Under the pieces are notes generated by a model that ran no database searches, was not told where the DNA came from, and saw only the letters and a program-made list of their open reading frames with translations. 64,000 nucleotides of DNA from Microbulbifer litoralis (GTDB lineage Bacteria > Pseudomonadota > Gammaproteobacteria > Pseudomonadales > Cellvibrionaceae): positions 1-64,000 of the forward strand of contig NZ_JALKCV010000003.1 in NCBI RefSeq assembly GCF_023634065.1. The letters run 5' to 3'. How positions within the stretch are numbered: the stretch's first letter is position 1; each line of letters starts with the position of its first letter. Shown here in pieces: positions 2,290-39,385 of this stretch. Both the position numbers and the translations under genes were made by a program.

Positions 2290-4269
2290 TCAGTTAAAAA
2301 AGAAGGAGAAGTCTGCGTAGATGGCCGGGTCGTCCGGATCGTCGCCGGTGCCCTCGATGGATGACTTGGACATGGTGGGCCAGGCAACCGACAGTTGGCT
2401 CGCGAAGGCCTCTTTCCAGTTGAACTTGAACAGCAGGCCGGCACCGGACAGGGTGCCCCAGTCATCGTCGACGTCCGCCTCGTAGTTCGTTATCGCGCCG
2501 TAGGCGCCATCGGCGATCAACGCCACCTGCATGATCTCATTCAGGCTGCTGCCGAAGACTTGGGCGTTGAGCGTCTCGGGCAGGTCGAAGTACCACTCGG
2601 CCGACAGCAGCGCCGCGCGGTCGGCGGAGAAGTCGCGCACATCAAAGGCGCGTACACCATTGGCGCCGCCCAGGGAAAATTGCTCAAAGGCCGGCAGGCT
2701 CTTGTCGCTGTATTGCCAGCGGCTCTTGAAGATCAGGCGCGAATTGTTATCGCTGAACGGCATGGGAATAAATAACAGCGAGCTGGTGTCCGCGGCGAAC
2801 TTGCCGAAATTTGTACCGCGTTCCGGGTCCACTTCGTTCTGGTGCTCGCCGTACTGGATCTTGGCATTCAGGATATTCAGCATCGGCACAGCACCGTTGG
2901 AAAGACTATCCATATTGATACCGAACTCGCCGCCGTAGACCTGGTCACCCGGGTCCAGCACGTTTTGGACGATGGCTTTCAGTTTGGACTCCTTGTCGGT
3001 CAAGCTGAAGGAACCGGTCAGGTTGAAGTCCCGCGAGCGGCGAAACTTGTGATCCACGGTCAGTGCGTAACTTTTATTGACGCCGCTGATCTCCAACTTG
3101 TTGACGACATTGTTTTTGTTCTCAATGTCCTGCAGGGAGAAGTCGTTGTAGTCGGCGGAAAACTGCAGCCTTGTGCGCGGCCCGAACAACGGCAGGCTGT
3201 AGCGGAATTGGCCCAAATCGGAACCGAAATCTGTCTCGGAATCCAGATTTTCCACATTGGAAGACTTCAGGTAGCCGATCGTCAGCGCGTCGCCGATACC
3301 CAGTGGGTTCAGCCAGTCTACCGAGGTGAACATTCGCTGGTCACCGGTAAACAGGGAACCGTGGTTATCGAACCGCGTCACGGCACTCCAGGATTGCTCG
3401 TCCCGCACCCTCAGGTTCAGCCTGGTCTCGCCGGGATTTTTGCCGGCGCTGAAATAGCCGGTAATATTCAGGCTCGGCAGGTCGTTCAGCAGGTAGAGGC
3501 TTTCTTCGATCACCTCGTGGCTGACCAGCTCACCGCGATACCCCTCGAAGGGCTCTGCCAGCTGCTCCAGGGAGTATTTCTGGTTGTTCTCCACTGCCAC
3601 TTGGCCCAGCAGGCCCTCCTGCACCGTCAGCGTGACCACCCCGTCGCTGACCTCCTGCGCCGGAATCAGGACCTGGGCCAGGAACAGGCCCTGCTTGCGG
3701 TAAAAGCGGGTCAATTCCGCGGCGATTTCCTCCAGGTCACCGAAGGTGAGGCCGCGCTCGGCATTCTGCTTTTCCACCATATTGACCAGCCGGCGCAGCT
3801 CGGCGGGGCCCAGCTCCTCCGAGTCGTAGCGGGCGCCGATACCGTCGAGCTGCAGCGCCAGCTGCTCCAGCTCATCGACGGTATAGCCGCTGGCGACCTT
3901 CTGGTCTTCTTTCATGAATTTTGCCCGCAACTCCTCGGCGAGCTGCTCGACTTTTTCCCGGGTAATGCCATATTCCGGGAATTCCTGCAGCCGGTGGAAG
4001 CGGAACTCCTTTACGCTGATCCGCGGCCCCTCCGTACGCTGGGAGATCCCGGGAATATCGGTATCGAGATTGGGGTCGCGCGCCTCGCGCCGGCGCTGCT
4101 CGAACTCCCGGCTTACATCCTGCTCGCTGACAGTGGGAGCATCCTGATCGAAGGCGGCTCGGACGCGGCTGCGAAAGCTCGATTCCTCCTCCTGTGTATA
4201 ACCGGCTTCCGGCAACAGAAGCAGGCCGGCCCCGAAAATGGCCAACGGGCCTTTAAAACGCGCGAGCAT
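2290..4269 (-). CDS. TpsB-family outer-membrane translocator (ShlB/FhaC/HecB type)
   Basis: The 659-residue protein begins with a signal peptide (about residues 1-25) and a charged segment. Two POTRA-like domains follow (about 80-290; the second contains FYRKQGLFLAQVLIPAQ), then a C-terminal 16-strand-type beta-barrel ending in FSFFFN with a terminal aromatic/Asn signature. A VRAFD motif near residue 555 matches the conserved VRG[YF] barrel loop of this family. It would secrete the adjacent TpsA across the outer membrane through POTRA recognition of the TPS domain. The gene is first in a tpsB-tpsA pair. The length is slightly above the usual 550-600 because of the charged N-terminal region. 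The family call is firm; the substrate follows from the neighbour. Confidence 0.92.
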   Translation of the reverse strand: MLARFKGPLAIFGAGLLLLPEAGYTQEEESSFRSRVRAAFDQDAPTVSEQDVSREFEQRRREARDPNLDTDIPGISQRTEGPRISVKEFRFHRLQEFPEYGITREKVEQLAEELRAKFMKEDQKVASGYTVDELEQLALQLDGIGARYDSEELGPAELRRLVNMVEKQNAERGLTFGDLEEIAAELTRFYRKQGLFLAQVLIPAQEVSDGVVTLTVQEGLLGQVAVENNQKYSLEQLAEPFEGYRGELVSHEVIEESLYLLNDLPSLNITGYFSAGKNPGETRLNLRVRDEQSWSAVTRFDNHGSLFTGDQRMFTSVDWLNPLGIGDALTIGYLKSSNVENLDSETDFGSDLGQFRYSLPLFGPRTRLQFSADYNDFSLQDIENKNNVVNKLEISGVNKSYALTVDHKFRRSRDFNLTGSFSLTDKESKLKAIVQNVLDPGDQVYGGEFGINMDSLSNGAVPMLNILNAKIQYGEHQNEVDPERGTNFGKFAADTSSLLFIPMPFSDNNSRLIFKSRWQYSDKSLPAFEQFSLGGANGVRAFDVRDFSADRAALLSAEWYFDLPETLNAQVFGSSLNEIMQVALIADGAYGAITNYEADVDDDWGTLSGAGLLFKFNWKEAFASQLSVAWPTMSKSSIEGTGDDPDDPAIYADFSFFFN

Positions 4270-4374: not shown

Positions 4375-6948
4375 CTATTTGAGGTTCCGCACGATGCGGA
4401 GGCCTGTCAGCCGGTCGGCCTCACCGCTGTGGAAGCGCTTGGTGGTGGCGAGGCAACGACTCATGGGATCTTCGCGGCTGCCCCCGACCGCCATCAACCG
4501 GCCATCCGTGCCGTAGGCCCACTCCTGCACATTGCCGACCGGGTTGACGAGACCAAACTGGTTGCGGGTTCCCGCCCCAACAGCCACCAGCTCTGCCCCC
4601 TTTTCGATACCGCCATACTTCAGGTGGCAGTTGCGGTCTGCAACCTCCTGCTGGCCACCAGCGCTGGCCGCGGCAAACCATTCGCGCTCGGTGGGCAACC
4701 GGTATTCGTGGCCAGTCTGCGCGCTGAGCCAGTCGATGTAAGCCTCAGCCTTTGCCAGCGGGATATTGTTGACGGGCATATTGTCCGGTCCGAGGGACAA
4801 ACCGCTGCACTGGCCAGTCGCTTCACAGAAGCGTCGGAAATCGCCGTTGCTGACCTCGTATTTGCCCACCACCAGCAATGCGCTGCTGTCCCCCTTGACC
4901 ACCACCATGGTCGGCGCTTCACCGCCGGAAGCAAGGCGATCGGCACAGCTGTAGCGCTCGCCGCGGCCACCGCTGCCCGGGCGCAGGTGACCGCAGAAAT
5001 CCAGCTCGAAGTCCTGTAACGCCTGTTGCGCCGGCAAAAGCGCACGGGCTTCATTCAGCAGCGGCTCTGTACGGATGGGATTTTTGTCGGCGAGCGTGGT
5101 GAAGCAGCCGGCCAGTTCCGTACCGAGCACCGGGCGGATTTTCTGCGCCTTGATGGAATCCAGAGCCGCCAACCGCTGCAATTGTGTGCCGACACCGCCA
5201 ATGTTCATACTGAACCGACAGCGCAGGGCTCCTTCCATATCGTCGAGCACGGCATCGATCTTGCGCTGCTGCGCCAGCGCGGCCTGGCGGCGCTGCTCGC
5301 GCAGTTCCTGCTGGCGCAAGCGCTCGGCCTCCCGTTCGGCCGCCAGGCGCTCCGCCGCCAGGCGCTGGCGCAGCTCCTCGCGCTCGGATTCGACCTGCGA
5401 GCGGATCATCTCTGCCTCGCTGGATTCGCCATCCCAGTTGTCGGCACGCGTCAGCATGTCGTCGGCCTGCTCCAGGTTCCCCAGGTTCAGCTGGCCCGTG
5501 GCCGCGGAGATGAACAGTTCGTAGGTCCGCTGGTTGATCGTTTCGATATAGCTCTGGTCATCCGGATTCAGCCCCGCGTACTCCTGCAACTCCACCTGCA
5601 GGTCCTCCTCCCAGGAGGGCGTCAGCGTACTGAGCTCCACCAGCCGGTCTATCGCCTCCCGCTTGTCGGCAATACGGCTCTGCAGCAGTTCCTGCTCCAG
5701 CTTCTTCTCCAGCTCGACTTTGACCCGCTGCTGCTCCGCCACATTCTCCTTTTCCAGGTAGGTGTAGCCCACGCCGGCACCGACCAGCAGGGTGGCAAAA
5801 ACACCACCGAGCACCCACTTCCAGGTGTTGTTACCGAAGAATTTCTGGACGAACTTGTCGACCGTGGCGGTGCGGTCTTCGCGATGAATGGCGAGGGCGG
5901 ATTCCAGTGCGCGCCACTGGCGCCGGCTCAGGGAGCGGATGCGCTTGGGTTTCAGCTTGCGCTCCGCCGCCTTGTCCGCAGGCACTTTGCCGAAGGGATG
6001 CCGGCCACTGAACAGTTCGTAGGCCACACACGCGAGTGCGTAGACATCGTCACTCGGCGCCGGCTCTCCGCCCTTCAGCATTTCATAGCTGGCGTAGGCG
6101 GGCGTCAGCGCACCCAGGGTACCGGCATCGAACAGGGTTTTCTCGCCGACGTTGCCGATGCTGCCCTCGGATACCGCCCGGGCGATACCGAAGTCGAATA
6201 CCTTCGCACCCTTCTTGCGGGTCACGAAGATATTCCCGGGCTTGAAGTCCGAGTGGACGATCTGGTGGGAGTGGGCGTAGATCAGCGCCTGGGAGATGTT
6301 GTGCAGTACCGAGCAGGCCTGCTCGAACTCCAGCCCCACATCGGCGTGCTCGCGCAGCAACTTGTCCAGCGGAGCGCCCTCCAGGAACTCCATGGTCATG
6401 AAGACGCGATCGCCGTCGCGGTCGAAGTCGTAGACGGTTACGATGTGTGGGTGCGCCAGGGTCTGCGACTTGCGGGACTCCCGCTGCAGGGAGATGAACG
6501 CATCCGGATGCTTCTGGAAGTCGTCGTTGAGCAGTTTGATGGCGACGTAGGGCTCGCTGTCACTGGCTTCCAGCTTGCGGCGGTCGAGCGCCTTGTATAC
6601 GGCCCCCATACCGCCGACCCCGAGCAGCTTGTCGAGCTCGAAGCGCCCCTTGATCACGGTCTTGGTGACCGCTCCGGAGCCGGACGCCGCGGGCTCGAAC
6701 TCGACGGCCTCCCTCGGTGTCGCAGGCGGAGACGCGTCCGCCGGGCGCCGGCTGGGTTTGAGCACGGTGGCATCGGCGGTAAAGTCCGAAGCGGCGGAGG
6801 GAATGAGGCCGGGGTTGGCGCTCACCGGCGGGTGGTCATTGGCTCCGGTATTTTCGTTGCCGACAAAAACGGTAGTATCGCCGTCGTCACACTCCGGCAG
6901 TGCTTCATCCGACTTTTTGACTATGCGCGTTTCGTCGTTCACACCCAC
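4375..6948 (-). CDS. PpkA-like Ser/Thr protein kinase with C-terminal FGE-sulfatase domain, T6SS regulator
   Basis: The protein has 857 residues. After a Thr/Asp-rich N-terminus comes a Hanks-type kinase domain (about 103-369) with glycine loop GVGGMG, ATP-binding Lys138 in VAIK, catalytic segment HSDFKPGN (Asp234; Ser replaces the Arg of HRD) and DFG at 252-254. A transmembrane helix lies at about 377-397, followed by a long Arg/Glu-rich coiled coil. The C-terminal domain (about 700-857) is of the formylglycine-generating-enzyme type, with RLPTEREW and NVQEWAYG motifs. It is therefore a membrane-anchored kinase with a periplasmic sensor-like domain. P. aeruginosa PpkA instead carries a VWA C-terminus. 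The FHA protein and PP2C phosphatase elsewhere in the locus make it the likely kinase of the threonine-phosphorylation pathway. The catalytic state of the FGE-like domain cannot be judged. Confidence 0.88.
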   Translation of the reverse strand: MGVNDETRIVKKSDEALPECDDGDTTVFVGNENTGANDHPPVSANPGLIPSAASDFTADATVLKPSRRPADASPPATPREAVEFEPAASGSGAVTKTVIKGRFELDKLLGVGGMGAVYKALDRRKLEASDSEPYVAIKLLNDDFQKHPDAFISLQRESRKSQTLAHPHIVTVYDFDRDGDRVFMTMEFLEGAPLDKLLREHADVGLEFEQACSVLHNISQALIYAHSHQIVHSDFKPGNIFVTRKKGAKVFDFGIARAVSEGSIGNVGEKTLFDAGTLGALTPAYASYEMLKGGEPAPSDDVYALACVAYELFSGRHPFGKVPADKAAERKLKPKRIRSLSRRQWRALESALAIHREDRTATVDKFVQKFFGNNTWKWVLGGVFATLLVGAGVGYTYLEKENVAEQQRVKVELEKKLEQELLQSRIADKREAIDRLVELSTLTPSWEEDLQVELQEYAGLNPDDQSYIETINQRTYELFISAATGQLNLGNLEQADDMLTRADNWDGESSEAEMIRSQVESEREELRQRLAAERLAAEREAERLRQQELREQRRQAALAQQRKIDAVLDDMEGALRCRFSMNIGGVGTQLQRLAALDSIKAQKIRPVLGTELAGCFTTLADKNPIRTEPLLNEARALLPAQQALQDFELDFCGHLRPGSGGRGERYSCADRLASGGEAPTMVVVKGDSSALLVVGKYEVSNGDFRRFCEATGQCSGLSLGPDNMPVNNIPLAKAEAYIDWLSAQTGHEYRLPTEREWFAAASAGGQQEVADRNCHLKYGGIEKGAELVAVGAGTRNQFGLVNPVGNVQEWAYGTDGRLMAVGGSREDPMSRCLATTKRFHSGEADRLTGLRIVRNLK

Positions 6949-7223
6949 CTCCCTGAAGAATCATTGCAGTACATCCCGTTACTGCCCCGGATAATCGAGT
7001 TCCGTCGATTGTTTCAATGAAAAGCCGTGCCTGGTTGGCACCGGCAAAGGTTATTGAGTCGCGCAGTATAACTGACGGACTTTCAGCCAACAATTGAGTT
7101 GTCGACGCAAAAGCCCGATTTTGTATGTCATTCAATTACACGCTATTGGAATTTTTTCCATTTTCACGGCCAACCCTACACCTGCACCAAAAACCAATAA
7201 TCAAATTTATTCCAAAATAAAAA

Positions 7224-7394
7224 GGTTCCAGAGTGGATAACCACAAAACCTGCCGCCGGACCCACAATCCCACACCAGGTTTACAGGAGTTCGCGGCCTG
7301 TAAAAATGGTGCCAGAGTGAATAAAAACTGAAATATGCGAGGTGAAAGATACCGCCGCAAACGGCACTTTTATTTAGTGCCAGAGTCGATTTAA
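7224..7394 (+). repeat. three spaced direct repeats upstream of hcp
   Basis: Imperfect copies of [GA]GT[GT]CCAGAGT[GC][GA]AT[AT] begin at 7224, 7308 and 7376. The core CCAGAGT is identical in all three. The spacings are 84 and 68 bases, near integral helical turns (8 and 6.5). All are on the same strand and upstream of the candidate hcp promoter, an arrangement typical of activator sites. The binding protein is unknown. Confidence 0.5.
7280..7304. promoter_or_regulatory. perfect palindrome in the ppkA/hcp control region
   Basis: TTTACAGG at 7280-7287 is mirrored by CCTGTAAA at 7297-7304 around a 9-base spacer. An 8-bp perfect dyad of this width resembles a dimeric regulator site rather than a terminator, since no T tract follows. 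It lies between the first and second direct repeats. Confidence 0.4.
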
Positions 7395-7456
7395 AAAACA
7401 GGATTAGAGGTTTTTTTCGGCATTGGCCTCTGGTTAAATGCGCACAGTTGCCGTTA

Positions 7457-7540: not shown

Positions 7541-8029
7541 ATGGCTATTTACATGAACTTCAACAGCAACTCTCCGAAAGGCAACGTAACTGCAAAAGGT
7601 TACGAGGACTGGATTGAAGTAGACAGCTTCAACTTTGGTGTCGGCCGCGGCATCAGCATGGAAGCCGGCGCCATGGCCAACCGCGAAGCCACCCGCCCGA
7701 GCATCAGTGAAATTACCGTAACCAAGCGCATCGACGCCGCTTCCGGTGGCCTGTTCAAGGCTTCCGTTTCCGGTGACGAAGGCGTTGTTGCCGAGTTCCA
7801 CGTTGTCCAGACCGGTGCCAACTCCGTAGAGAAGTACGCTGTCTACAAGCTGGAAGATGCCATCATCTCTTCCTACAGCATCAGCGCCTCTTCCGGCGGT
7901 GCGCCGATGGAGTCCATCTCCCTGAGCTTTGCCAAGATCGAGGCGGACCTGAACCACGCCGACAAGACCAACAAGAACCCGAAAAACATGCGTGTGGGGT
8001 ACGACCTTACCACCGCTACCGTCCTGTAA
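7541..8029 (+). CDS. hcp: Hcp (TssD), T6SS inner-tube protein
   Basis: The 162-residue product matches the Hcp1 family: MAIYMNFNS start, FNFGVGRGI, ATRPSISEITVTK and the C-terminal MESISLSFAKIE strand. Hcp forms hexameric rings that stack into the tube propelled by the sheath and can itself carry effectors. The start has GAGGG seven bases upstream. It stands alone as a transcription unit, with a long regulatory region before it and a terminator hairpin after it, consistent with the high separate expression usual for hcp. Confidence 0.97.
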   Translation: MAIYMNFNSNSPKGNVTAKGYEDWIEVDSFNFGVGRGISMEAGAMANREATRPSISEITVTKRIDAASGGLFKASVSGDEGVVAEFHVVQTGANSVEKYAVYKLEDAIISSYSISASSGGAPMESISLSFAKIEADLNHADKTNKNPKNMRVGYDLTTATVL

Positions 8030-8257: not shown

Positions 8258-10165
8258 ATGTCTACTCTCAATCAAGATCAACGCATGATCCAAGTCGATA
8301 CCCCAATCGGCAAGGACGCTCTCATCGCGACCACGCTCCAGGGCGAAGAGCATGTGTCAAAGCTCTTCTGCTACCAGGCGGAACTGCTCTCCGACAACCA
8401 TGCCGTCACCCAGCAGGACATTGTCGGCAAGGTGATGACATTTACCGTCCATCACGCCGAGAAGCCGCGTCATATCAGCGGTTATGTGACCAACTTCTCA
8501 ATGCACGATGTGAATGGCGAGGGGATGCGCAGCTACAGCGCGGTCATTCATCCCGGCCTCTGGTTTACCACCCTGGGTGGCAAGAACCGGGTCTTCGAAA
8601 AGAAATCGGCCAAACAGATCCTGGAGGAGGTACTGGGCGAGTACAGCAAGGTAGTCAAGCTGTCGCTGAAGCTCAACGCCGAGTATCTGCCGCGGGAATA
8701 CTGCGTACAGTTCGATGAGAGTGACTTCCAGTTCATCAACCGGCTGATGGCCGAAGAGGGCATCGCCTACTACTTCAAACACTCCGACGGGGACCACGAA
8801 CTGGTTCTCTGTGACGATCCGCAGGATTTCTACGACTGTGAGTCGGACAAGATCGAATACGATGGCGGTGGTAGCCACCCCACAAAAAATACCGTCAGCC
8901 GCTGGAAGCGCAACTTCAATTTCCACGGTGGCGGCTTTGAATTCAAGGATTACAGCGAGTTCACGGCCACCAAGGACAACAAGCAGCAGGTAAACACCAC
9001 CAGCAAGCTGAACGATGTATCCAGTTACATTCGCAGCCTCTACGGCCTGAACCATTTCGAGGCCGACGGCGAGCACAAGCACAAGTTCAAGGACAGCTAC
9101 CACAAGGCGCTGGCGGAACGCGCCATGGAGGCGCAGGAGTCACTGTTCGATATCGCCCACGGCCGCAGTGATTGTCCCGGGTTCGCAGCCGGTGGACGAT
9201 TCGACTTCGACCACACGCTGACAACAGAGAAAGGCAAGTACCTGCTGACATCGGTACAGATGACGGTAACCGACAGCAACAGCGAGGAAACCCATTTCCA
9301 CAACACCTTTACCTGTGTCCCGGCCAAGGCCATGCCGCGTCCGGACCCGTGCTCCTGCAGCAATCGCATTCACGCCCCGCAGGTTGCCAAGGTACAGGAA
9401 GTCAAGGCCACGGCTGCCGACGGATCCCAGGATCCCTACACACAGGTCAAGGTCAAATTCCCCTGGAACTCCGCACAGAACAGCTGCTGGATGCGGGTGA
9501 TGCAGTCCTTTGCCGGCAAGAACTGGGGCGCCAACTTTGTCCCGCGCGTGGGCCAGGAAGTGGTGGTCAGCTATATCAATGGCGACCCGGACCGGCCCCT
9601 GATCACCGGCGCCGTCTACAACGGTGACAACCCGGGCCCCAACTATACGGCTACCCAGAGCGGCTGGAAGACGGAGTACGAGGGTAGCAAGTTCAACGAA
9701 CTTCGCTTTGATGACAAGGGCGGCAAGGAAGAGATCTACATGGAGGCCGGCAAGGACCACAATTTCGTGATCCACAATGACCAGACCGGCAAGATCGAAA
9801 ACAAGCAGACCCTGGAGATCAAGCAGGATCGCTGTGTCACCGTTACCGACGGCAGTGAAAATGTGACCATCGCCAAGGGCGATCAGGTCGTCAATATCGA
9901 TAAAGGCAACCAGAAGACCACCCTCGGTGCCGGCGACCACACCCTGAAGATCAGCCAGGGGAAACAGACCACTGACGCCATGGGGGCCATCAAAATCACC
10001 TCCAATACCTCTATCGAGCTGAAGGTCGGCAGCAGCAGCATCAAACTCAGCCCGAGTGGTATAACCATCAAGGGTATGACCCTGTCGTGCAAGGGCGACG
10101 GCAAAGCCGAAGTCAAGGGTGGCGGTATGCTGACCCTGAAGGGCGGCGTTACCATGATCAATTGA
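8258..10165 (+). CDS. vgrG: VgrG (TssI), T6SS spike protein
   Basis: The 635-residue protein has the full VgrG plan: N-terminal gp27-like part (about 1-370, with phage late-control-like segments VSKLFCYQAELLS and EGIAYYFKHSDGDH), the gp5 OB-fold (about 390-470, with PRVGQEVVVSYINGDPDRPLITGAVYN), and a C-terminal repetitive beta-needle ending GGGMLTLKGGVTMIN. There is no extra effector domain beyond the needle. The start at 8258 has GGGGCTGGG just upstream. It heads a rightward module with a small adaptor-like gene, PAAR and lipase, so cargo is probably loaded through the PAAR tip. Confidence 0.97.
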   Translation: MSTLNQDQRMIQVDTPIGKDALIATTLQGEEHVSKLFCYQAELLSDNHAVTQQDIVGKVMTFTVHHAEKPRHISGYVTNFSMHDVNGEGMRSYSAVIHPGLWFTTLGGKNRVFEKKSAKQILEEVLGEYSKVVKLSLKLNAEYLPREYCVQFDESDFQFINRLMAEEGIAYYFKHSDGDHELVLCDDPQDFYDCESDKIEYDGGGSHPTKNTVSRWKRNFNFHGGGFEFKDYSEFTATKDNKQQVNTTSKLNDVSSYIRSLYGLNHFEADGEHKHKFKDSYHKALAERAMEAQESLFDIAHGRSDCPGFAAGGRFDFDHTLTTEKGKYLLTSVQMTVTDSNSEETHFHNTFTCVPAKAMPRPDPCSCSNRIHAPQVAKVQEVKATAADGSQDPYTQVKVKFPWNSAQNSCWMRVMQSFAGKNWGANFVPRVGQEVVVSYINGDPDRPLITGAVYNGDNPGPNYTATQSGWKTEYEGSKFNELRFDDKGGKEEIYMEAGKDHNFVIHNDQTGKIENKQTLEIKQDRCVTVTDGSENVTIAKGDQVVNIDKGNQKTTLGAGDHTLKISQGKQTTDAMGAIKITSNTSIELKVGSSSIKLSPSGITIKGMTLSCKGDGKAEVKGGGMLTLKGGVTMIN

Positions 10166-10175
10166 TGGAGTAGTG

Positions 10176-10754
10176 ATGACCGACCTGGTAAAAGTCCAAG
10201 CGATAACCGCCGCCGAACTGCTCGAACATTTTGAGGTCAGCGATGAGGCAGAAGAGCACCTGGTGCCGGACACGGCTCCGGAAGTCAGCATCGACAAACT
10301 GATGGAAGCCGGCCTCTACGCGGACGCAATCAAACTGCTTGCCCACGGCCTGCCCAAACGCGAGGCCGTCTGGTGGGCCTGCCTGTCTGCCCGCGACATA
10401 CAGAATCCACAGACCGACGAGGACAACGTCAATGCGTTGATCGCCGCGGAGTCCTGGGTCAAGAAACCCGGTGAAGAGATCCGGCTACGCTGCAAGGCGC
10501 TGGCGGAGAAGACCAAGCACAAGACACCGGCAAGCTGGGCCGCAACGGCCGCCAGCTGGTGTCACGGCAGCCTGGCAAAAGAGGGGGAGCCCCCTATAGA
10601 GCCACCGGAGCACCTCTATGCCCACGCTGTGGCCGGCGCCGTCAACCTGGCGGCCGTATATTCGGATCCGGTAAATCCGGACAAACAATTTACTCGCTAC
10701 CTGGAGCAGGGCCTGAACCTGGCCCGGGGCGGCAACGGCAAAATCGAGGCCTAG
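10176..10754 (+). CDS. VgrG/PAAR-associated protein of unknown function (DUF6931-like)
   Basis: The 192-residue product has no signal peptide or membrane segment. It has a helical, Ala/Glu-rich sequence with a WWACLSARD motif and a C-terminal HAVAGAVNLAAVYSDP segment. I recognise it as the type of small protein often encoded between vgrG and PAAR (annotated DUF6931 as far as I recall). The ATG at 10176 follows GGAG by five bases; a GTG one codon earlier is possible. The position, 10 bases after vgrG and 3 before PAAR, suggests a cytosolic adaptor or chaperone for spike or effector loading, which is inference. Confidence 0.7.
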   Translation: MTDLVKVQAITAAELLEHFEVSDEAEEHLVPDTAPEVSIDKLMEAGLYADAIKLLAHGLPKREAVWWACLSARDIQNPQTDEDNVNALIAAESWVKKPGEEIRLRCKALAEKTKHKTPASWAATAASWCHGSLAKEGEPPIEPPEHLYAHAVAGAVNLAAVYSDPVNPDKQFTRYLEQGLNLARGGNGKIEA

Positions 10755-19797: not shown

Positions 19798-21327
19798 TCA
19801 GTTGACGGCCCCCACCCCGATTTGCGCCAGCGCTGTGGTCAGCTTCAGTTCGGAAACCAGGTGATCCACGGTGTAGTGGCTCTTCAGGTGGATCACACTC
19901 TGGTAGCTGCCCGGCTTACCCGGTTCGTCCATCACCGAAACCCGGGCCTCGCGCAGTGGATAGCGCGCGAGCATTTCCCAGGACAGGTCGTCGCGACCGG
20001 TGGTGTAGCGATCCAGCCACTGCTGCAGTTGCCGCTCGCAATCCTTGGCGTTCATATAGGCACCGACCTTGTCGCGGATCATGACCTTGATGTAGTGGGC
20101 GAAGCGCGATGCACAGAGAATCTGTTGCAGCATGGAACTGATACGCGCATTGGCGGTGGCCGCCTTGCTGGTGTACTGCTTGGGCCGCTGCATGGAGGGC
20201 ACACTGTTGAAGGCGCTATAAGCCGTGTCGTAGCAGTGGCACAGGCAGGTAAAACCCAGCTCGCTCAGTTCGCGCTCGGCGAAGTCGGTCACCAGTATCG
20301 ATGTCGACATCCGCACCTGCTGCGGGCTGCTGTCCGCCCGATAGGGCACCGCCGGCAACTGGCTGACCAGCCCGCCGCCGATATGGTCGCGGGCCACACC
20401 ACGGATATGCGAGAACCAGCCCACCTCGCTGAATTCCCGGATCAATACCGTGCCCAGCGCAAAACAGGCATTGCCCCACAGGTACTTGCGACTGTCGCGC
20501 CCGGCGACATCCTCGGCAAAGCGCAGGCCGCGATAGCTGCTGAAATCGGTATCGTAGGGTTGCCGCATCAATACCTGCGGCAGGGTGACAGCGATAAAGC
20601 GGCTGTCCTCCATATCCCGCAGGCCGTTCCAGCGGATGTACTGCTTCTGCCGAAAGACTTCCGCAAAGTCGATCGGCCGCGCCATATCGTCGAAATGATC
20701 CACACCAAACAGCTGCGGTGTCACCCCGCAGACGAAGGGCGCAAAGGCCGCCGCCGCGGTATGCGCGATCCCCTGCAGCGTAAAGACGTCGTCGTACGGG
20801 TGGTCGGCGAAGGGGCGGTGGGCCACGCGATAGTCACCGAGAATCAGGCCGAAAGGCTGGCCGCCGGGTGTGCCGAACTCCTCGTTGTAAATCAGGTGGA
20901 AGAGCCCGGACTGATCGAAGTCCGGCGCCCGCTCGATATCCTTGCTGAGATCGCGCCAGCTGACATCCAGCAGCTTCACCTGGATGTTGTCGGAGTGCGG
21001 TGTGCTGTGCACCAGCATCGACAGGCCCCGCCAGCTGGCTTCCAGCTGCTGGAAGCGCGGGTGATGCAGGATGCTGTTGATCTGGTCGCAGATCAGCTCG
21101 TCCAGTTCCGCCACCAGGCGGTTGAGCCACTGGCGCAGGGAATAGTTTTCCCGCTGCGGACAGGGGCAGATCTCCGTCAGCCAGTACTCGAACGCAAAGA
21201 GGTCATCCGGCTCGCGCAGGAATTTCTGCAACGGCGACATGCGCTGCAGCAGCTGCGGCGGCAACAGGGACTCTGTATCAGTGCGCTTGTCGGCGGATTG
21301 GGCGGCGGGCACAGCGTGTACTCCCAC
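19798..21327 (-). CDS. second TssC-type sheath protein
   Basis: The 509-residue protein is a full-length TssC paralogue: LEASWRGLSMLV, YNEEFGTPGGQPFGLILGDY, a YLWGNACFALG segment, ASRFAHYIKVMIRDKVG and the C-terminal EARVSV...YQSVIHLKSH strands all align with the neighbouring tssC product. It has its own Pro/Ser-rich N-terminus. The start read is GTG at 21327 with a weak ribosome site. It sits between tssC and tssE. Tandem TssC proteins are known (impC/impD in Rhizobiaceae). A role in a specialised sheath ring or in baseplate contact is inference. Confidence 0.9.
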   Translation of the reverse strand: MGVHAVPAAQSADKRTDTESLLPPQLLQRMSPLQKFLREPDDLFAFEYWLTEICPCPQRENYSLRQWLNRLVAELDELICDQINSILHHPRFQQLEASWRGLSMLVHSTPHSDNIQVKLLDVSWRDLSKDIERAPDFDQSGLFHLIYNEEFGTPGGQPFGLILGDYRVAHRPFADHPYDDVFTLQGIAHTAAAAFAPFVCGVTPQLFGVDHFDDMARPIDFAEVFRQKQYIRWNGLRDMEDSRFIAVTLPQVLMRQPYDTDFSSYRGLRFAEDVAGRDSRKYLWGNACFALGTVLIREFSEVGWFSHIRGVARDHIGGGLVSQLPAVPYRADSSPQQVRMSTSILVTDFAERELSELGFTCLCHCYDTAYSAFNSVPSMQRPKQYTSKAATANARISSMLQQILCASRFAHYIKVMIRDKVGAYMNAKDCERQLQQWLDRYTTGRDDLSWEMLARYPLREARVSVMDEPGKPGSYQSVIHLKSHYTVDHLVSELKLTTALAQIGVGAVN

Positions 21328-26081: not shown

Positions 26082-26822
26082 TCAGTGAAGGTTTTCCCTG
26101 CGCTGCCGGGCGTGCAACCGGCTCAGGTTGTCGACCCGGCGCAGGGAGTGCAGGTGTGCATAGATTGGCGACAGGTAGCCGCGCCTGCGCAACTCGATAA
26201 ACCTTTCCTCTGGAAGCGCCTGCAGCGCTGTTTCATCGACACGGAACACACCGTTCAGTCGGTGATTCACACCGCCCTGTAACCTGACCTGGATAACCTG
26301 CTCTTCAAGCAACCGCTCCGCCTGCAGATAGCGGACGAACGTATCCGTCAATGTGCCCTGTCGCTGGAGTTGCACAAGCAGGTGGGCCATGTTGTCCAGA
26401 TACTCGGTACGCCCCCCGCCGGGCTCGAAAAGCGGTTCGCCGGACTCCCCGCCGGCAAGCAGCAGTGGCGAGCTCTCGTCGACACAGACCGCCATTTGCT
26501 TTCCGCTTTCGCCGATGCGAGCCATCGCGAATGGCCGGGCGCGGAGATGGCAGGGGACATAGCGCCCCCGCCAGCGACTGTTCTGCCAAAAGAGATTGTG
26601 ACCCGGCGTCACGCCCAGCATCGCCACGCAGCACAGGGCACCGCCCTCTTCGGATCGCACAAAAAGAATCGGGCACTCCGCGGACACTTCGGCAAATTCA
26701 CCCAACAGTACCGGGCAGGTCTGTTGTTGCGCGGCATGGCCGTAACTGCCACGGGCGATGCGATAACTGCGATGCCGGTTCCTGTCGAGAGGGACCAGGC
26801 GCCTGCCGCTGGATGGCTCCAC
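26082..26822 (-). CDS. SapC-family protein
   Basis: The 246-residue protein starts best at GTG 26822, with GGAG seven bases upstream, 22 bases after tagF; the frame upstream lies over tagF and is not used. The sequence follows the SapC (PF07277) pattern: LGEFAEVSAECPILFV, AMLGVTPGHNLF, WRGRYVPCHLRARPFAMA, MAVCVDESSPLL, GEPLFEPGG and the C-terminal VDETALQALPEERFIEL with a final Ser-Leu segment. SapC genes are usually found beside TonB-dependent receptors or halogenases in marine bacteria, with no settled function. Here it is the last gene of a T6SS operon, which is unusual. Confidence 0.8.
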   Translation of the reverse strand: MEPSSGRRLVPLDRNRHRSYRIARGSYGHAAQQQTCPVLLGEFAEVSAECPILFVRSEEGGALCCVAMLGVTPGHNLFWQNSRWRGRYVPCHLRARPFAMARIGESGKQMAVCVDESSPLLLAGGESGEPLFEPGGGRTEYLDNMAHLLVQLQRQGTLTDTFVRYLQAERLLEEQVIQVRLQGGVNHRLNGVFRVDETALQALPEERFIELRRRGYLSPIYAHLHSLRRVDNLSRLHARQRRENLH

Positions 26823-26844
26823 GATCGTTCTCCGTAAATTCTGG

Positions 26845-27510
26845 CTACCAGTGCCTTGCCTGCGCGCCGAGCATGGCGCAGTAGAGCGTCGGTTCCGGCA
26901 GCCCCGGACTGACCAGGGTCGTCGGGGCCAGGTGTTGGGAACCGGCGCACCACCACAGGCTGTAGCTGGGGTACTGCTGTCGGTACAGCTGGTTGAGCAG
27001 CCCCGGATAGCTGCCGGAGATGGCGTCGCCGTCACCGGTGGCGATATGCGCCTCGGAGACCACCGACACCTGATCGGCCACCGCGGCGAACGCGGGCTGC
27101 GGGAAACGCTCACTCAATTGATCCGCCTGCAGCGCACTCTGCAGCGCCTCTATGGCCAGCTCCGACAGCTGCCGGTACCAGTCGGTCGCCGCCACCTGCA
27201 GCGCGAAGGGATTGCCCTGCGGTGTCGGCACCGCCATGGTCAGCGGGAAGTAGCGCCCGACACTGTCCACGCTGGGTACCAGGATACCGGCCCAGCCCTG
27301 CTCATCCAGCACGCCGGGCGACAGGGCAAAGCGCCAGATGGGGCTCGTCAGGTAGTAGTCGAGCCAGGGTTCGCCGATCAGTTCGCGCGAACCGTGCACG
27401 GCCCGCTGCAGCCACTCGTCCCACGGCGTGACGAAACTGGCCGGCAACTCGCGCTGGATAAAGTCGCCGTGTCCCGGCAACTTGCCGAACAGGCCCTTGC
27501 TGTCTGTCAC
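26845..27510 (-). CDS. tagF: TagF, T6SS post-translational regulator (ImpM family)
   Basis: The 221-residue product begins GLFGKLPGHGDFIQRELP, the signature of the family, followed by WLDYYLTSPIWRFALSPG and a Ser-Val-Asp-Ser-Val-Gly-Arg motif (SVDSVGRYFPL). Start is GTG 27510 behind GGAGG. TagF represses T6SS assembly in P. aeruginosa, through Fha, independently of PpkA. It is the single-domain form, not fused to PppA, whose gene lies at 38522-39385. Confidence 0.93.
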   Translation of the reverse strand: MTDSKGLFGKLPGHGDFIQRELPASFVTPWDEWLQRAVHGSRELIGEPWLDYYLTSPIWRFALSPGVLDEQGWAGILVPSVDSVGRYFPLTMAVPTPQGNPFALQVAATDWYRQLSELAIEALQSALQADQLSERFPQPAFAAVADQVSVVSEAHIATGDGDAISGSYPGLLNQLYRQQYPSYSLWWCAGSQHLAPTTLVSPGLPEPTLYCAMLGAQARHW

Positions 27511-35992: not shown

Positions 35993-37492
35993 TCAGCTCC
36001 AGGGGCCCCGCAGCTCACCACCGGACAGGGCCTGCAAGCGGGGCAGCAGTATCTGGTCCCTGCCCTGCACCGAACGCAGTGTGCTGAAGCCGGCCGCATT
36101 GAATTGCGCCGCGGCCCGGTCGCTCAACTGCGCCTCCGCGCAGGGTGTCATCCACTGCCCCTGTGGCAGCTTGCGCAGGTGCAGGGGCAGGTTTTCATAG
36201 CTGGCGGAGGCCACCGGCGCGGGGCGCCCCTCACGCACAAACTGTTCGCACAGGGACAATGCCAGCAGGTAGGCGCCGTTGCCCCAGAGGTAGTATTGGT
36301 GGCCGTGCTCCGCGGTCAGTTCCTCGAACCCGAAGCAGTCGGTGGTGGCGGAGTCGGCACCGTAGGGCAGCCGCAGCATGAAGCGCGGGCCCGCCAGGGC
36401 GATGTGGCCACTGGCAGAGTATTCGCGCACCGCCTGCCAGCCACTGGCGAAAGTGTCGGACAGCGGGTAGTGCCAGTCGTCGGGATCGAGGGATCCCGCC
36501 AGGGTCGGGCAACCCGCCAGGCGGCTGTCGCCCCCCAGTACCACGGCGCTGCCCGCGGCCTCGGCGATGGTGGCCAGGTCGATCAGCAGGTGCAGGTCCC
36601 GCTCGTCGTCGGCAACGGTGAAATCGCCCAGGATCAGGTTGTAGGGCAGGCCGCCGGCCACTGTCTCACGCTCCACCAGGCACTTGAACAGTTGCGACTG
36701 CTCCAGGTCGTCCTCCGCGTGAGCGAAATCCGCCAGGACCTCTTCCTTGCTGACATCGATCAGGTGCAGCTGCAGCCCGGGGTGATCCTCGAGGCGGCGC
36801 AGCAGCAGGTGCAGGCTGCGCCAGCTGGCTTCCAGCTGGCGGAAGTCGCTGTGGTGCATGATCTTGCGCATCGCCTCGGAGGAGGCCTCTGCCAGCGCCT
36901 GCAGGTAGGCCGCCTGCTGTGCATCGGGCTTCTCCTGTACATAGGGCGCGACGATATCCTTGATCAGCCGGTCTATCTGCCCCTCGGGACTGGACGCATA
37001 GGCCTCCCGGTAGCCACTCCCGGACAGGATGGCGTCCAGCATCGACTCGCCGCCGGTCTGCGACTGCAGGCCGGCCGGCTGCAGCTCGGGCCGCCACTGG
37101 CGTATTTCCTCGGCGGCGCCGGCAAACTGCGAGGGATTCAGCAGGCGCTTTTCCAGCTCGATAAACTGCCGGAAGAGCGGCACGCGGCTGTACAGGTAAT
37201 CCGGGTGCAGGTCATCGAACTCGAGCAGCGACAGCGGTTCGTCCATGACCGGAAGTTGCAGTCGCACACCCAGTTGCTCGAACAACGCTTCAAAATTGTC
37301 TTTCCCGAGCCGGTATGCCGGGCGCTGCGCCAGGGATTCCGGCTCGCACTGCCGCCGGCTGGCGCGACCGCTGAAATCCCCAAGCACAGCCACCTTGAGA
37401 ATCCCGGCGCCGGCGGCGATGGTTTCCTCCCCGGCGCCGTCTTCGCCACTGCGGAAAATGGTACTGTCGGTATTGATGCTCGCTCGGCTCAA
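35993..37492 (-). CDS. TssB-TssC fusion, truncated sheath-like protein
   Basis: The 499-residue protein starts at TTG 37492, with GGAG 8 bases upstream. Residues about 31-135 follow TssB (VAVLGDFSG, YRLGKDNFEALFEQLGVRL, LLEFDDLHPDYLYSRVPLFRQFIELEKRLL), but the N-terminal TssB strand is absent. Residues about 173-480 follow TssC (LEASWRSLHLLL, YNLILGDF, FMLRLPYGADS, YYLWGNGAYLLALSL), yet the protein stops where TssC would still have about 100 residues, including the RIAHYLKVM helix and the last strands. It is co-transcribed with the transposase homologue, 2 bases after it. It may form a sheath-end ring or baseplate piece; the function is not known to me. Confidence 0.85.
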   Translation of the reverse strand: MSRASINTDSTIFRSGEDGAGEETIAAGAGILKVAVLGDFSGRASRRQCEPESLAQRPAYRLGKDNFEALFEQLGVRLQLPVMDEPLSLLEFDDLHPDYLYSRVPLFRQFIELEKRLLNPSQFAGAAEEIRQWRPELQPAGLQSQTGGESMLDAILSGSGYREAYASSPEGQIDRLIKDIVAPYVQEKPDAQQAAYLQALAEASSEAMRKIMHHSDFRQLEASWRSLHLLLRRLEDHPGLQLHLIDVSKEEVLADFAHAEDDLEQSQLFKCLVERETVAGGLPYNLILGDFTVADDERDLHLLIDLATIAEAAGSAVVLGGDSRLAGCPTLAGSLDPDDWHYPLSDTFASGWQAVREYSASGHIALAGPRFMLRLPYGADSATTDCFGFEELTAEHGHQYYLWGNGAYLLALSLCEQFVREGRPAPVASASYENLPLHLRKLPQGQWMTPCAEAQLSDRAAAQFNAAGFSTLRSVQGRDQILLPRLQALSGGELRGPWS

Positions 37493-37494
37493 GA

Positions 37495-38316
37495 TCAGCT
37501 CTCCATGGCGGCAATTTCGCCGGCTTTCTTATTGTTCACGTTGTCGCTTACGCTTTTGTGACCCGCGACCCCTTCCTGCTTGTCGAATTTTTTCGATGAA
37601 AGTCGATCCACATCGGCGGCGGAATCCTTATTGTCTTTTTTCGGGCGCCCGCGTTTCAGCGGGCGGACACGCTGGTTGGCGATCTGCTCGATCTTGTCCT
37701 TGAAGGTATCCCCGCCCAGCACATGGCCGAGCTTGATAGTCTCGGCAATATACTCCAACAGGCGGCGATCGAAACTGTAACGGAACAGTTTTCGATAGGC
37801 CTCGGCCCGCTCGCGGCCCGTCTCCCCCAGCTGCAGGTAGAGGCGGTGGTCGGTAATGACTTCACTGCGCACCACACTGGCGTGGTGATTGAAACTGGAC
37901 CACGGATAATCACCGAGGGATTCCGCCAGCCCCAGGTACATGGGGCGCAGCTCCACGTAGCGATAGCAGGTCAGCAGGTAGGCGTCCGAGTCGATCAGGC
38001 TGGACTTATAGCGACCCGCCCAGAGCGTACCGGAACGCTTGTAGCGATGGTTCACATACTGCACGTAGCGCCGCCCAAGGGACTGCATCATGGAAGAGAT
38101 ACCGTTGGGCACCCGCGGCGAGGCGATGATCTGTACCATGTTGGGCAACAGCACATAGGCGTGAACGTCGACGCTGTACTGGTCGGCCGCATTGCGCAGA
38201 CTGATCAGGTAGAACTGGTAGTCCTCGTCGTCGAAGAAGCACGGCAGGTTATTGTGCCCTACCTGGACAATGTGCTGGGGGATATCGATCAGGTTGAGTC
38301 GGGGTAGACGGGGCAT
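37495..38316 (-). CDS. REP-associated transposase homologue (Y1/TnpA_REP family) with lost HUH motif, first gene of T6SS block A
   Basis: The 273-residue protein starts at ATG 38316 (MPRLPRLNLIDIPQHIVQ). It matches the COG1943 family along its length: FFDDEDYQFYL, VDVHAYVLLPN, LGRRYVQYVNHRYKRSGTLWAGRYKS, DAYLLTCYRYVELRPMYLGL, YPWSSF and a C-terminal KRGRPKK. The HUH metal site, normally PNHVH in this family, reads PNMVQ, so both histidines are gone. Strand nicking is therefore unlikely; nucleic-acid binding may remain. No terminal repeats flank it, and the reading frame is intact. It lies 2 bases before the sheath-fusion gene. This points to domestication as a T6SS-linked regulator, by inference. 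Confidence 0.85.
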   Translation of the reverse strand: MPRLPRLNLIDIPQHIVQVGHNNLPCFFDDEDYQFYLISLRNAADQYSVDVHAYVLLPNMVQIIASPRVPNGISSMMQSLGRRYVQYVNHRYKRSGTLWAGRYKSSLIDSDAYLLTCYRYVELRPMYLGLAESLGDYPWSSFNHHASVVRSEVITDHRLYLQLGETGRERAEAYRKLFRYSFDRRLLEYIAETIKLGHVLGGDTFKDKIEQIANQRVRPLKRGRPKKDNKDSAADVDRLSSKKFDKQEGVAGHKSVSDNVNNKKAGEIAAMES

Positions 38317-38338: not shown

Positions 38339-38360
38339 GCCCGGGCGGGATAGCCCGGGC
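38339..38360. other. GC-rich hairpin in the leader of T6SS block A
   Basis: GCCCGGGC occurs twice (38339-38346 and 38353-38360) around GGGATA. Since the octamer is its own complement, an 8-bp stem can form in the 5' leader of the transposase-homologue transcript, 23 bases before its start codon. Confidence 0.4.
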
Positions 38361-38380: not shown

Positions 38381-38410
38381 ATTATCGCAAATGAATCAAA
38401 AAAATTTCAA
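38381..38410 (-). promoter_or_regulatory. sigma-70-like promoter for T6SS block A
   Basis: On the minus strand TTGAAA (38410-38405) and GATAAT (38386-38381) are separated by 18 bases in an AT-rich stretch. Transcription would begin near 38374 and yield a leader of about 58 bases before the transposase-homologue gene. The divergent pppA-like gene starts 112 bases to the right of the -35 element. Confidence 0.45.
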
Positions 38411-38521
38411 ACCAATGCTGCTACCAAGTTAACATTAATGGCTGGTTACGAGGAGCTTCGGCTTCTTTCCAACCCGGCAATTATTCAAAAAAATATGATT
38501 ATGAGGGGAGTTGCGGCTGAC

Positions 38522-39385
38522 ATGGAGGCAATCAGGCTGGCAGTCAACGGACGGACCGATATCGGGCAGATACGCGAGGAGAACGAAGACTGCATTCGCT
38601 GGTACGGCGATCGCGAACAGCCCTTCGCCTACATTGTTGTAGCCGATGGCATGGGCGGCTACAGTGGCGGCGCCACCGCCAGCCGCATCGCGGTGGAAAC
38701 GCTCGAGCGCCATCTCGGCAAGCTGCCCGACGGAATTTTTCTTTCCTGCTCACCGGAACAGCAGCAGCTGATGTTGCGCGCCACGCTGATCGACGCCATC
38801 GACAGCGCCAACCGGGAAATCCTGGAAACCCGGCATTCACACCCGCAGCTTTCGCAGATGGGGACCACACTGGTGGTCGCGGTCATCTGGAATGATTTCC
38901 TGATCGTGGCACATATCGGCGACTCGCGCGCCTACCTGTGGAACAACTACGGCCTGCAGCGTCTTACACGGGATCACAGCGTGGTCCAGGAAATGGTGGA
39001 CCAGGGGAAAATCACTGAGCAGCAGGCCCAGGAATCCAATATCCGCAACCATATCACCCGCGCGCTGGGGGTGTCGGACCAGGTCGAACCGACCATCAAC
39101 AGCTGGACGCTGACCGAGAGTGCACTGCTGTTGCTCTGCAGCGACGGTCTCACGGAATATCTCGACGACCACACCATTGAACGCGTCCTGGCGACACACC
39201 GCCCGGCACTGGAGTGCGTCTACCGGTTTATCGACGACGCCAATCAGCTGGGCGGCAGGGACAATATCAGCGCCGGCATCATGGAGTTTTCCACTATGCC
39301 GGACACTGTCACGGAAGCTTCCAACGAAGCCATTACACTCAAGCCCAGGAAGGAAGACGTCACCGTACGCAAGGAACAACGATAA
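38522..39385 (+). CDS. PppA-type PP2C Ser/Thr protein phosphatase
   Basis: The 287-residue protein starts best at ATG 38522, since the PP2C fold begins at once (TDIGQIREENEDC); GGGGAG lies 11 bases before it. Motifs are VADGMGGYSGG (metal-binding Asp42), MGTTLVVAV, HIGDSRAYLW, SDGLTEYLDD and GGRDNISAGI. It would reverse the phosphorylation made by the PpkA-like kinase and so lower T6SS activity. Earlier in-frame ATGs at 38495 and 38501 have no ribosome site. It is divergent from T6SS block A and 12 bases upstream of the Rhs gene, with which it is likely co-transcribed. Confidence 0.93.
   Translation: MEAIRLAVNGRTDIGQIREENEDCIRWYGDREQPFAYIVVADGMGGYSGGATASRIAVETLERHLGKLPDGIFLSCSPEQQQLMLRATLIDAIDSANREILETRHSHPQLSQMGTTLVVAVIWNDFLIVAHIGDSRAYLWNNYGLQRLTRDHSVVQEMVDQGKITEQQAQESNIRNHITRALGVSDQVEPTINSWTLTESALLLLCSDGLTEYLDDHTIERVLATHRPALECVYRFIDDANQLGGRDNISAGIMEFSTMPDTVTEASNEAITLKPRKEDVTVRKEQR

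Follow-up and report, generated by a model that had tools for sequence, protein, structure and literature searches.

The window (the whole stretch of DNA analyzed, 64,000 nucleotides from Microbulbifer litoralis) contains a T6SS cluster. Within this cluster lies a gene for a metal-null Y1 (HUH-superfamily) transposase homologue, referred to here as the null gene. The surrounding genes encode a PpkA-like kinase, Hcp, VgrG, a DUF6931 protein, a class 3 lipase, a ClpV-like ATPase, TssF, TssC, an ImpA_N (TssA-like) protein, TssM, TssL, TssK, TssJ, the FHA protein TagH, and a TssB/TssC-like fusion (Table 1). The cluster also contains a SapC-family gene (26082-27113, minus strand), and a ShlB/FhaC-type two-partner secretion gene adjoins it (2290-4269, minus strand). 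Provided that its TTG start is correct, the VipA/VipB-like fusion gene starts 2 bases beyond the null gene. In other Microbulbifer, the pair commonly overlaps or is almost contiguous. The fusion had no match to the gpW/gp25-like sheath domain. In addition to the fusion, a full TssC is encoded at 19798-21327. The fusion is kept in the Microbulbifer clusters that were read and is present in L141 and L160.

Table 1. Features of the null gene, its upstream region, and the hcp region, with an element of a metal-intact relative for comparison
Feature	Position	Strand	Basis or remark
Metal-null Y1 (HUH-superfamily) transposase homologue	37495..38316	-	273 aa; core (~1-232) constrained, tail fast-evolving
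Former HUH site, codons M60 V61 Q62	38131..38139	-	Alignment of 214 proteins
YVELR; Tyr120 kept, R124 replaces third metal ligand Asn	37945..37959	-	Alignment
AT-hook-like KRGRPKK	37636..37656	-	RGRP enrichment in null proteins; PF02178, 11.8 bits (cutoff, 17.4)
TssB-like + TssC N-domain fusion	35993..37492	-	Next operon gene after the null gene; Pfam
Leader palindrome GCCCGGGC-6-GCCCGGGC	38339..38360	-	Genus-limited
Null-gene promoter TTGAAA-18-GATAAT	38381..38410	-	Sigma-70-like, A/T tract in spacer; promoter scan
AATGTTAACTTG	38425..38436	-	Upstream of -35; conserved in most Microbulbifer
PP2C-type phosphatase gene	38522..39385	+	Divergent from the null gene; Pfam
PpkA-like Ser/Thr kinase (kinase + FGE-sulfatase domain)	4375..6948	-	Divergent from hcp across the boxes
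Box 3 AAAAGGTTCCAGAGTGGATAA	7220..7240	+	
Box 2 AATGGTGCCAGAGTGAATAAAA	7305..7326	+	
Box 1 (proximal) TTTAGTGCCAGAGTCGATTTAA	7373..7394	+	
TTAAAT, -10-like hexamer before hcp	7434..7439	+	Consensus of 40 loci; ~54 bp past the box 1 center
hcp (T6SS tube)	7541..8029	+	
vgrG	8258..10165	+	
DUF6931 gene after vgrG	10173..10754	+	
Element of a metal-intact relative GGGGTCAGA			

The null protein contains a Y1_Tnp domain (PF01797; E, 4e-7). Its match to NF047646 (REP_Tyr_transpos) scored 47.2 bits, under the model cutoff of 80. The predicted model has the Y1 fold (mean pLDDT, 88.1). Its best fold match is TnpAREP bound to a REP hairpin, and it also matches IS608-type transposases. A phmmer search of the PDB with the single protein gave no match; 4er8 was found with an alignment instead. 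In that profile alignment, the Y---NP stretch of E. coli TnpAREP falls in the Y120/R124 columns. Across the 214 aligned proteins, M60 and Q62 align to the HUH histidines, Y120 to the nucleophile, and R124 to the third ligand. The null protein reads PNMVQ where metal-intact relatives read NHVH. The histidine pair that marks Y1 transposases and TIRYTs is therefore absent (M60, Q62), and so is the third metal ligand, the Asn of the class 2 Y---N (R124); these ligand roles follow the cited part of PMC6006769. The nucleophilic tyrosine is present, and 140 of the 145 proteins with at least 60% identity have a Tyr there. With all three metal ligands gone, the protein is predicted to be incapable of cutting DNA. 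Although a Y1 transposase by descent, it falls outside the catalytic definition of these enzymes.

Helices are predicted beyond residue 140, where Pfam shows no HTH family. KRGRPKK has the RGRP core and basic flanks of an AT-hook and falls below the PF02178 cutoff. RGRP occurs in 159 of 162 null proteins versus 6 of 40 metal-intact proteins. No inverted repeats of at least 12 bases bracket the null gene in the window, and the terminal inverted repeats expected around a TIRYT gene are absent from it. Two inverted-repeat pairs lie near the gene. One is internal, and the other runs from the gene interior into the fusion gene.

These results confirm the observation in the original prediction, which had described a TnpA_REP-type homologue with a lost HUH site, no terminal repeats, a sheath-like gene 2 bases away, and a promoter-like site upstream. 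The family assignment agrees with PF01797 and with the subthreshold match to NF047646. Both histidines are gone as described, and the loss of the third ligand is an addition. The absence of terminal repeats was confirmed, and the 2-base spacing holds if the TTG start does. The promoter scan found a site upstream of the gene (Table 1) with a -10 that is also seen in other genera.

The H/H pair was present in 0 of 144 readable proteins with at least 60% identity, and one further fragment was gapped there. H/H/Y/N was present in 34 of 34 relatives at 38 to 50% identity and in 10 of 10 below 38%. The 25 relatives at 50 to 60% identity comprised 10 with E/H/Y/L, 7 that kept H/H, and 8 nulls. A tree was built from 117 of the 214 aligned rows, which were thinned by hand, with the catalytic columns masked. 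The null proteins fell in one clade (SH-aLRT, 99), whose 77 rows were 68 nulls and 9 E/H/L proteins. One H/H/D protein sits among the metal-intact proteins of this tree, outside the null clade. The metal site was therefore lost in a single event or close to it. Such a loss is not a matter of chance, given the breadth of the clade and the constraint on it. An order-wide search of 390 genomes gave 30 matches at E 1e-60, some of them metal-intact relatives. With the Oleiphilus protein P0100 as the query against 369 genomes, matches came from 4 genomes, the window's own included. A Mangrovitalea relative of the E/H/L type (L129) lies directly behind TssF, TssG, and ClpV genes, and the E/H/L sister group (Mangrovitalea, Oleiphilus) is in a T6SS cluster too at this one locus.

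A T6SS gene was found within 3 kb at 61 of 70 distinct null loci versus 0 of 46 loci of other relatives, with identical proteins counted once. The comparison loci had shorter flanks, mostly 3 to 6 kb, which makes 3 kb the fair distance. A PP2C gene was found within 1.5 kb at 54 of the 70 null loci, on the opposite strand in all 54, and at 0 of the 46 other loci. Within Microbulbifer, the null gene is present in 39 of 48 genomes and TssK in 37, and all 37 TssK-positive genomes have the null gene. The two carriers without TssK are G021 and G037; the contig of the latter stops inside the cluster, and the sheath gene is present. Across the family, 54 of 144 genomes carry the null gene (39 Microbulbifer and 15 others, the latter defined as matches above 370 bits). 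TssK is present in 51 of these 54 carriers versus 42 of 90 noncarriers. Related genomes are not independent, so Fisher values overstate the certainty of these counts and of those for the box below.

The usual order outside Microbulbifer is PP2C, null gene, hcp, vgrG, and DUF6931. A DUF6931 gene follows vgrG at most loci of this order (e.g., L117, 9120-9701). In one genus (G126 to G129), the null gene and PP2C adjoin recA-mutS, TssK is elsewhere in the genome, and no T6SS gene is near the null gene within the stretch read. G126 is Simiduia aestuariiviva (twin record, L110). In two more genomes (L112/L143 and L142), neither T6SS nor PP2C genes are near the null gene, and TssK is elsewhere. G114, a genome with no match to TssK or the sheath, still has the null gene, PP2C, hcp, vgrG, and a DUF6931-like gene (L148).

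The core of the null gene has a median dN/dS of 0.059 (96 of 741 Microbulbifer pairs, those with dS of 0.02 to 1.5). The tail past residue 232 has a dN/dS of 0.72 (41 pairs). G021 has the null gene and lacks TssK and the sheath gene. Its null-gene end branch is 0.19 versus about 0.03 in its sisters, and its dN/dS to the nearest relative is about 0.10. This looks like one case of apparent relaxation after T6SS loss. AATGTTAACTTG is eroded in G021 but also in L049, which has a T6SS.

Domestication of the gene had been suggested at the outset, with HUH loss and placement before the TssB-TssC fusion expected to recur and dN/dS expected not to be neutral. The loss recurs across genera, and selection is strongly purifying. 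The placement before the fusion characterizes Microbulbifer, and in other genera the null gene mostly precedes hcp-vgrG. Domestication is well supported because HUH loss and T6SS linkage both recur and purifying selection is strong.

A search for words common to the Y1 promoter and the region upstream of hcp gave none that were recurrent. It exposed a conserved block amid diverged sequence between the null gene and hcp at Thalassolituus-like loci. This block, AATTnGTGYCAGAGTCrATT, is called the box. A relaxed box pattern, sought on both strands of the window, matched at three sites only (7220-7394), before hcp and about 30 kb from the null gene. The box is absent from the null gene's own promoter and from the PP2C side.

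In Microbulbifer, with at most one mismatch, the box was found in 34 of 48 genomes and in 0 of the 10 without the sheath gene. The reversed control word occurred once. Four T6SS-positive Microbulbifer genomes were missed at this setting and have relaxed boxes before hcp. Across the 144 family genomes, the exact box was present in 44 of 54 carriers versus 4 of 90 noncarriers, and the reversed control of the exact pattern occurred once. Among TssK-positive genomes, it was present in 42 of 51 carriers versus 2 of 42 noncarriers. Eight of the nine TssK-positive carriers without an exact box have a relaxed box before hcp; in the ninth, G104, the contig is too short. The exact box precedes hcp in one of the four noncarriers that have it (G074) and not in the other three. 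G021, which lacks the T6SS, has one exact match, and this does not precede a recognizable T6SS gene. In G126 to G129, the null gene is not linked to the T6SS, yet boxes precede hcp.

A relaxed box was found within 450 bp before hcp in 63 of 63 distinct hcp upstream regions from carriers. Thirty-two of these came from loci that had been retrieved for reasons other than the box (the window, 24 null-gene loci, and L244 to L247, L289, L290, and L292). The counts are partly circular, because loci that had served to define the box and its relaxed pattern were counted as well (24 of the 32; the box itself was defined on many of these). The cleaner tests of the box are the seven pattern-missed genomes (L244 to L247, L289, L290, and L292) and the genus search. 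The count excludes Hcp matches weaker than 1e-15 or starting beyond residue 12. The full table has 64 rows, and the noncarrier L258 (G074) was left out of the 63. As a control, the box was sought within 500 bp before hcp in TssK-positive noncarriers and was found in 2 of 30 (30 of 41 listed matches, one each from 30 of 42 genomes). One of the two is G074, whose assembly is 77% complete and may not include the null gene. The control Hcp proteins are 38 to 58% identical to the window's, versus 70% or more for most carriers. The box might track an Hcp subtype because the control genes are more distant than most carrier genes. The few carriers with Hcp at 51 to 60% identity all have the box (4 of 4). 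Judged from these counts, the box appears to depend on the presence of the null clade and not on the T6SS alone.

The proximal box lies 155 to 170 bp before hcp at 40 of 64 loci. When these 40 were aligned on it, a TTAAAT -10 with a TG ahead and a poor -35 appeared at a near-fixed distance. This putative hcp promoter was not among the sites that the promoter scan listed for the window. A start about 7 bp beyond TTAAAT would put the box center near -64, which is a usual activator position. None of the 64 loci has an opposite-strand box before hcp. The box arms pair only in part. Further boxes stand before effector-like genes, including Amidase_2, Peptidase_C58, and a subthreshold Scabin-like match, as well as before some genes of no known family. 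One of these further boxes precedes a fliE gene, probably by chance. Several other exact boxes precede nothing T6SS-like.

The metal-intact relatives suggest where the box may have come from. Among metal-intact relatives at 38 to 50% identity, 29 of 33 have GGGTCAGA no more than 250 bp from their gene, compared with 0 of 13 more distant relatives. The reversed word was found in 0 of 46 relatives. The motif words for these counts and for the hcp upstream counts were chosen after earlier box alignments had been seen. GGGTCAGA was upstream on the coding strand in 26 cases and downstream and inverted in 15; 8 had both (stricter test). According to the cited parts of the literature, TIRYT genes have terminal inverted repeats (TIRs) with a common GGGGWSAS (De Nocera et al. 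2013, PMC3733652), and 20 of 26 TIRYT genes belong to subclass 2.1 (TnpAY1), whose C-terminal extension is helix-turn-helix-like (Quentin et al. 2018, PMC6006769). GGGGTCAG of the metal-intact relatives fits this published consensus. At null loci, the repeat element lay no farther than 250 bp from the gene in 20 of 68, with 19 on the coding strand in the downstream, hcp-side spacer. GGGGTCAGAGTC is still present before hcp at three null loci (L126, L127, and L156), and these forms bridge the box and the GGGTCAGA element. The box resembles that element, and from this likeness we infer that it may descend from an ancestral terminal repeat.

We consider it likely, from comparative sequence evidence, that the null protein is a DNA-binding regulator of a T6SS regulon and acts through GTGYCAGAGTC boxes before hcp and scattered effector-like genes. 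In the proposed mechanism, a TIRYT-like transposase homologue would have lost the ability to cut along with its three metal ligands. The null protein would recognize the box before hcp, and the AT-hook-like motif may add minor-groove contacts in the A/T-rich box arms. Binding would activate hcp rather than repress it. Activation is preferred because the proximal box is near-fixed in position and has one orientation, about 64 bp upstream of the predicted start at 40 of 64 loci, with a poor -35 and a TG-preceded -10. On balance, and with less assurance, the data favor the exaptation of the transposase together with its own terminal repeat. The cutting site would have been lost, the AT-hook gained, and the repeat turned into an operator, giving a T6SS regulon across marine gammaproteobacteria. 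The original prediction had suggested a DNA- or RNA-binding regulator of its own operon or of nearby palindromic repeats. The DNA-binding regulatory role has indirect support. The suggested targets hold up only in part. The palindrome is genus-limited and forms no repeat family, the box is missing from the promoter of the null gene itself, and the hcp box is the best candidate.

Another regulator could bind the box while the null protein merely travels with the T6SS/Hcp lineage and has some other function. In favor of this, the null gene is physically linked to the T6SS in most of these nonindependent genomes, and the control Hcp proteins are more distant than those of carriers. We nevertheless find this unlikely. 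The box follows the null gene and not the T6SS as such (42 of 51 versus 2 of 42), and it is present both where the null gene is unlinked and in all four carriers with a distant Hcp. Its likeness to the element beside metal-intact relatives also argues for the null protein as the factor that binds it.

The null protein could instead bind RNA or a hairpin and regulate itself through its own leader palindrome. Some pair-keeping changes are present among 21 distinct Microbulbifer leaders, and the mean folding z is -1.5 for 36 Microbulbifer leaders versus -0.3 for 29 from other genera, where no such leader is seen. A reading of the aligned rows showed the palindrome broken in L048, L068, and L072, and no further leader copies were found near the null gene, so that autoregulation of this kind is improbable. 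The leader hairpin was rejected as a family-wide trait. The palindrome was also rejected as a REP family, with only 2 perfect copies in the genome and 269 copies at up to three mismatches versus 192 for the control. Farther upstream, AATGTTAACTTG may serve the divergent PP2C promoter as its -10 region. It was rejected as a T6SS-wide operator, with one site in the window and one more match in the scanned Microbulbifer loci. The back-to-back null-gene and PP2C promoters (38381-38436) may share a TTTGAAA/TTTCAAA -35 region.

The frequent divergent PP2C gene (54 of 70 null loci) would fit a partner in a T6SS phosphorylation pathway with PP2C, PpkA, and TagH and with no role in nucleic acid binding. 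This is highly improbable given the fold match to hairpin-bound TnpAREP and IS608-type transposases and the enrichment of RGRP in the null clade, and it leaves the box unexplained. A decaying or dormant transposase would have lost its metal site too, but this is scarcely credible for a gene conserved in 39 of 48 genomes of the genus and in other genera, with a dN/dS of 0.059 and no bracketing inverted repeats.

The preferred reading, a box-binding regulator derived from a transposase, can be set beside known systems. Like TIRYTs, the null protein has a Y1 core and a C-terminal extension, and its metal-intact relatives carry the TIR-like GGGGTCAG. It differs in lacking the three metal ligands, in the added RGRP, and in a gene without TIRs and with a box before hcp. 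It differs from E. coli TnpAREP/RAYT (4er8) in its lost catalytic site, its T6SS association, and a box unlike GTAG-tagged REPs. AT-hook proteins (PF02178) share the RGRP core and basic flanks, but the null-protein match is under the Pfam cutoff, single copy, and joined to a Y1 fold. TldR proteins are nuclease-dead. Like them, the null protein would be a relative of transposon nucleases from the IS200/IS605 world that turned regulator, and such exaptation is already known from TldR. The cited part of the TldR report describes TnpB-related, RNA-guided transcription factors linked to flagellin (PMC13418256), whereas the null protein is related to TnpA/Y1 and tied to the T6SS.

A literature search, largely of titles and abstract beginnings, found no report on the null gene, its T6SS link, or the box. 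In the cited part of their survey, Quentin et al. selected only HuH + Y proteins (722 of 924) and took missing core motifs to indicate nonfunction (PMC6006769). The null clade is a whole group of such motif-less Y1 members, a kind that the survey excluded, and it is strongly selected and tied to a weapon system. If the preferred reading is true, the path of both halves of a transposon, the protein and its recognition site, to a regulator and its operator can be followed, and the metal-intact relatives with their repeats remain for comparison. It would also offer a handle on how the T6SS is switched on in Microbulbifer and its relatives. The box may help to find candidate effector genes by pattern search. 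At L225, L226, L232, L235, L238, and L249, boxes distant from the T6SS cluster precede effector-like genes and look-alikes.
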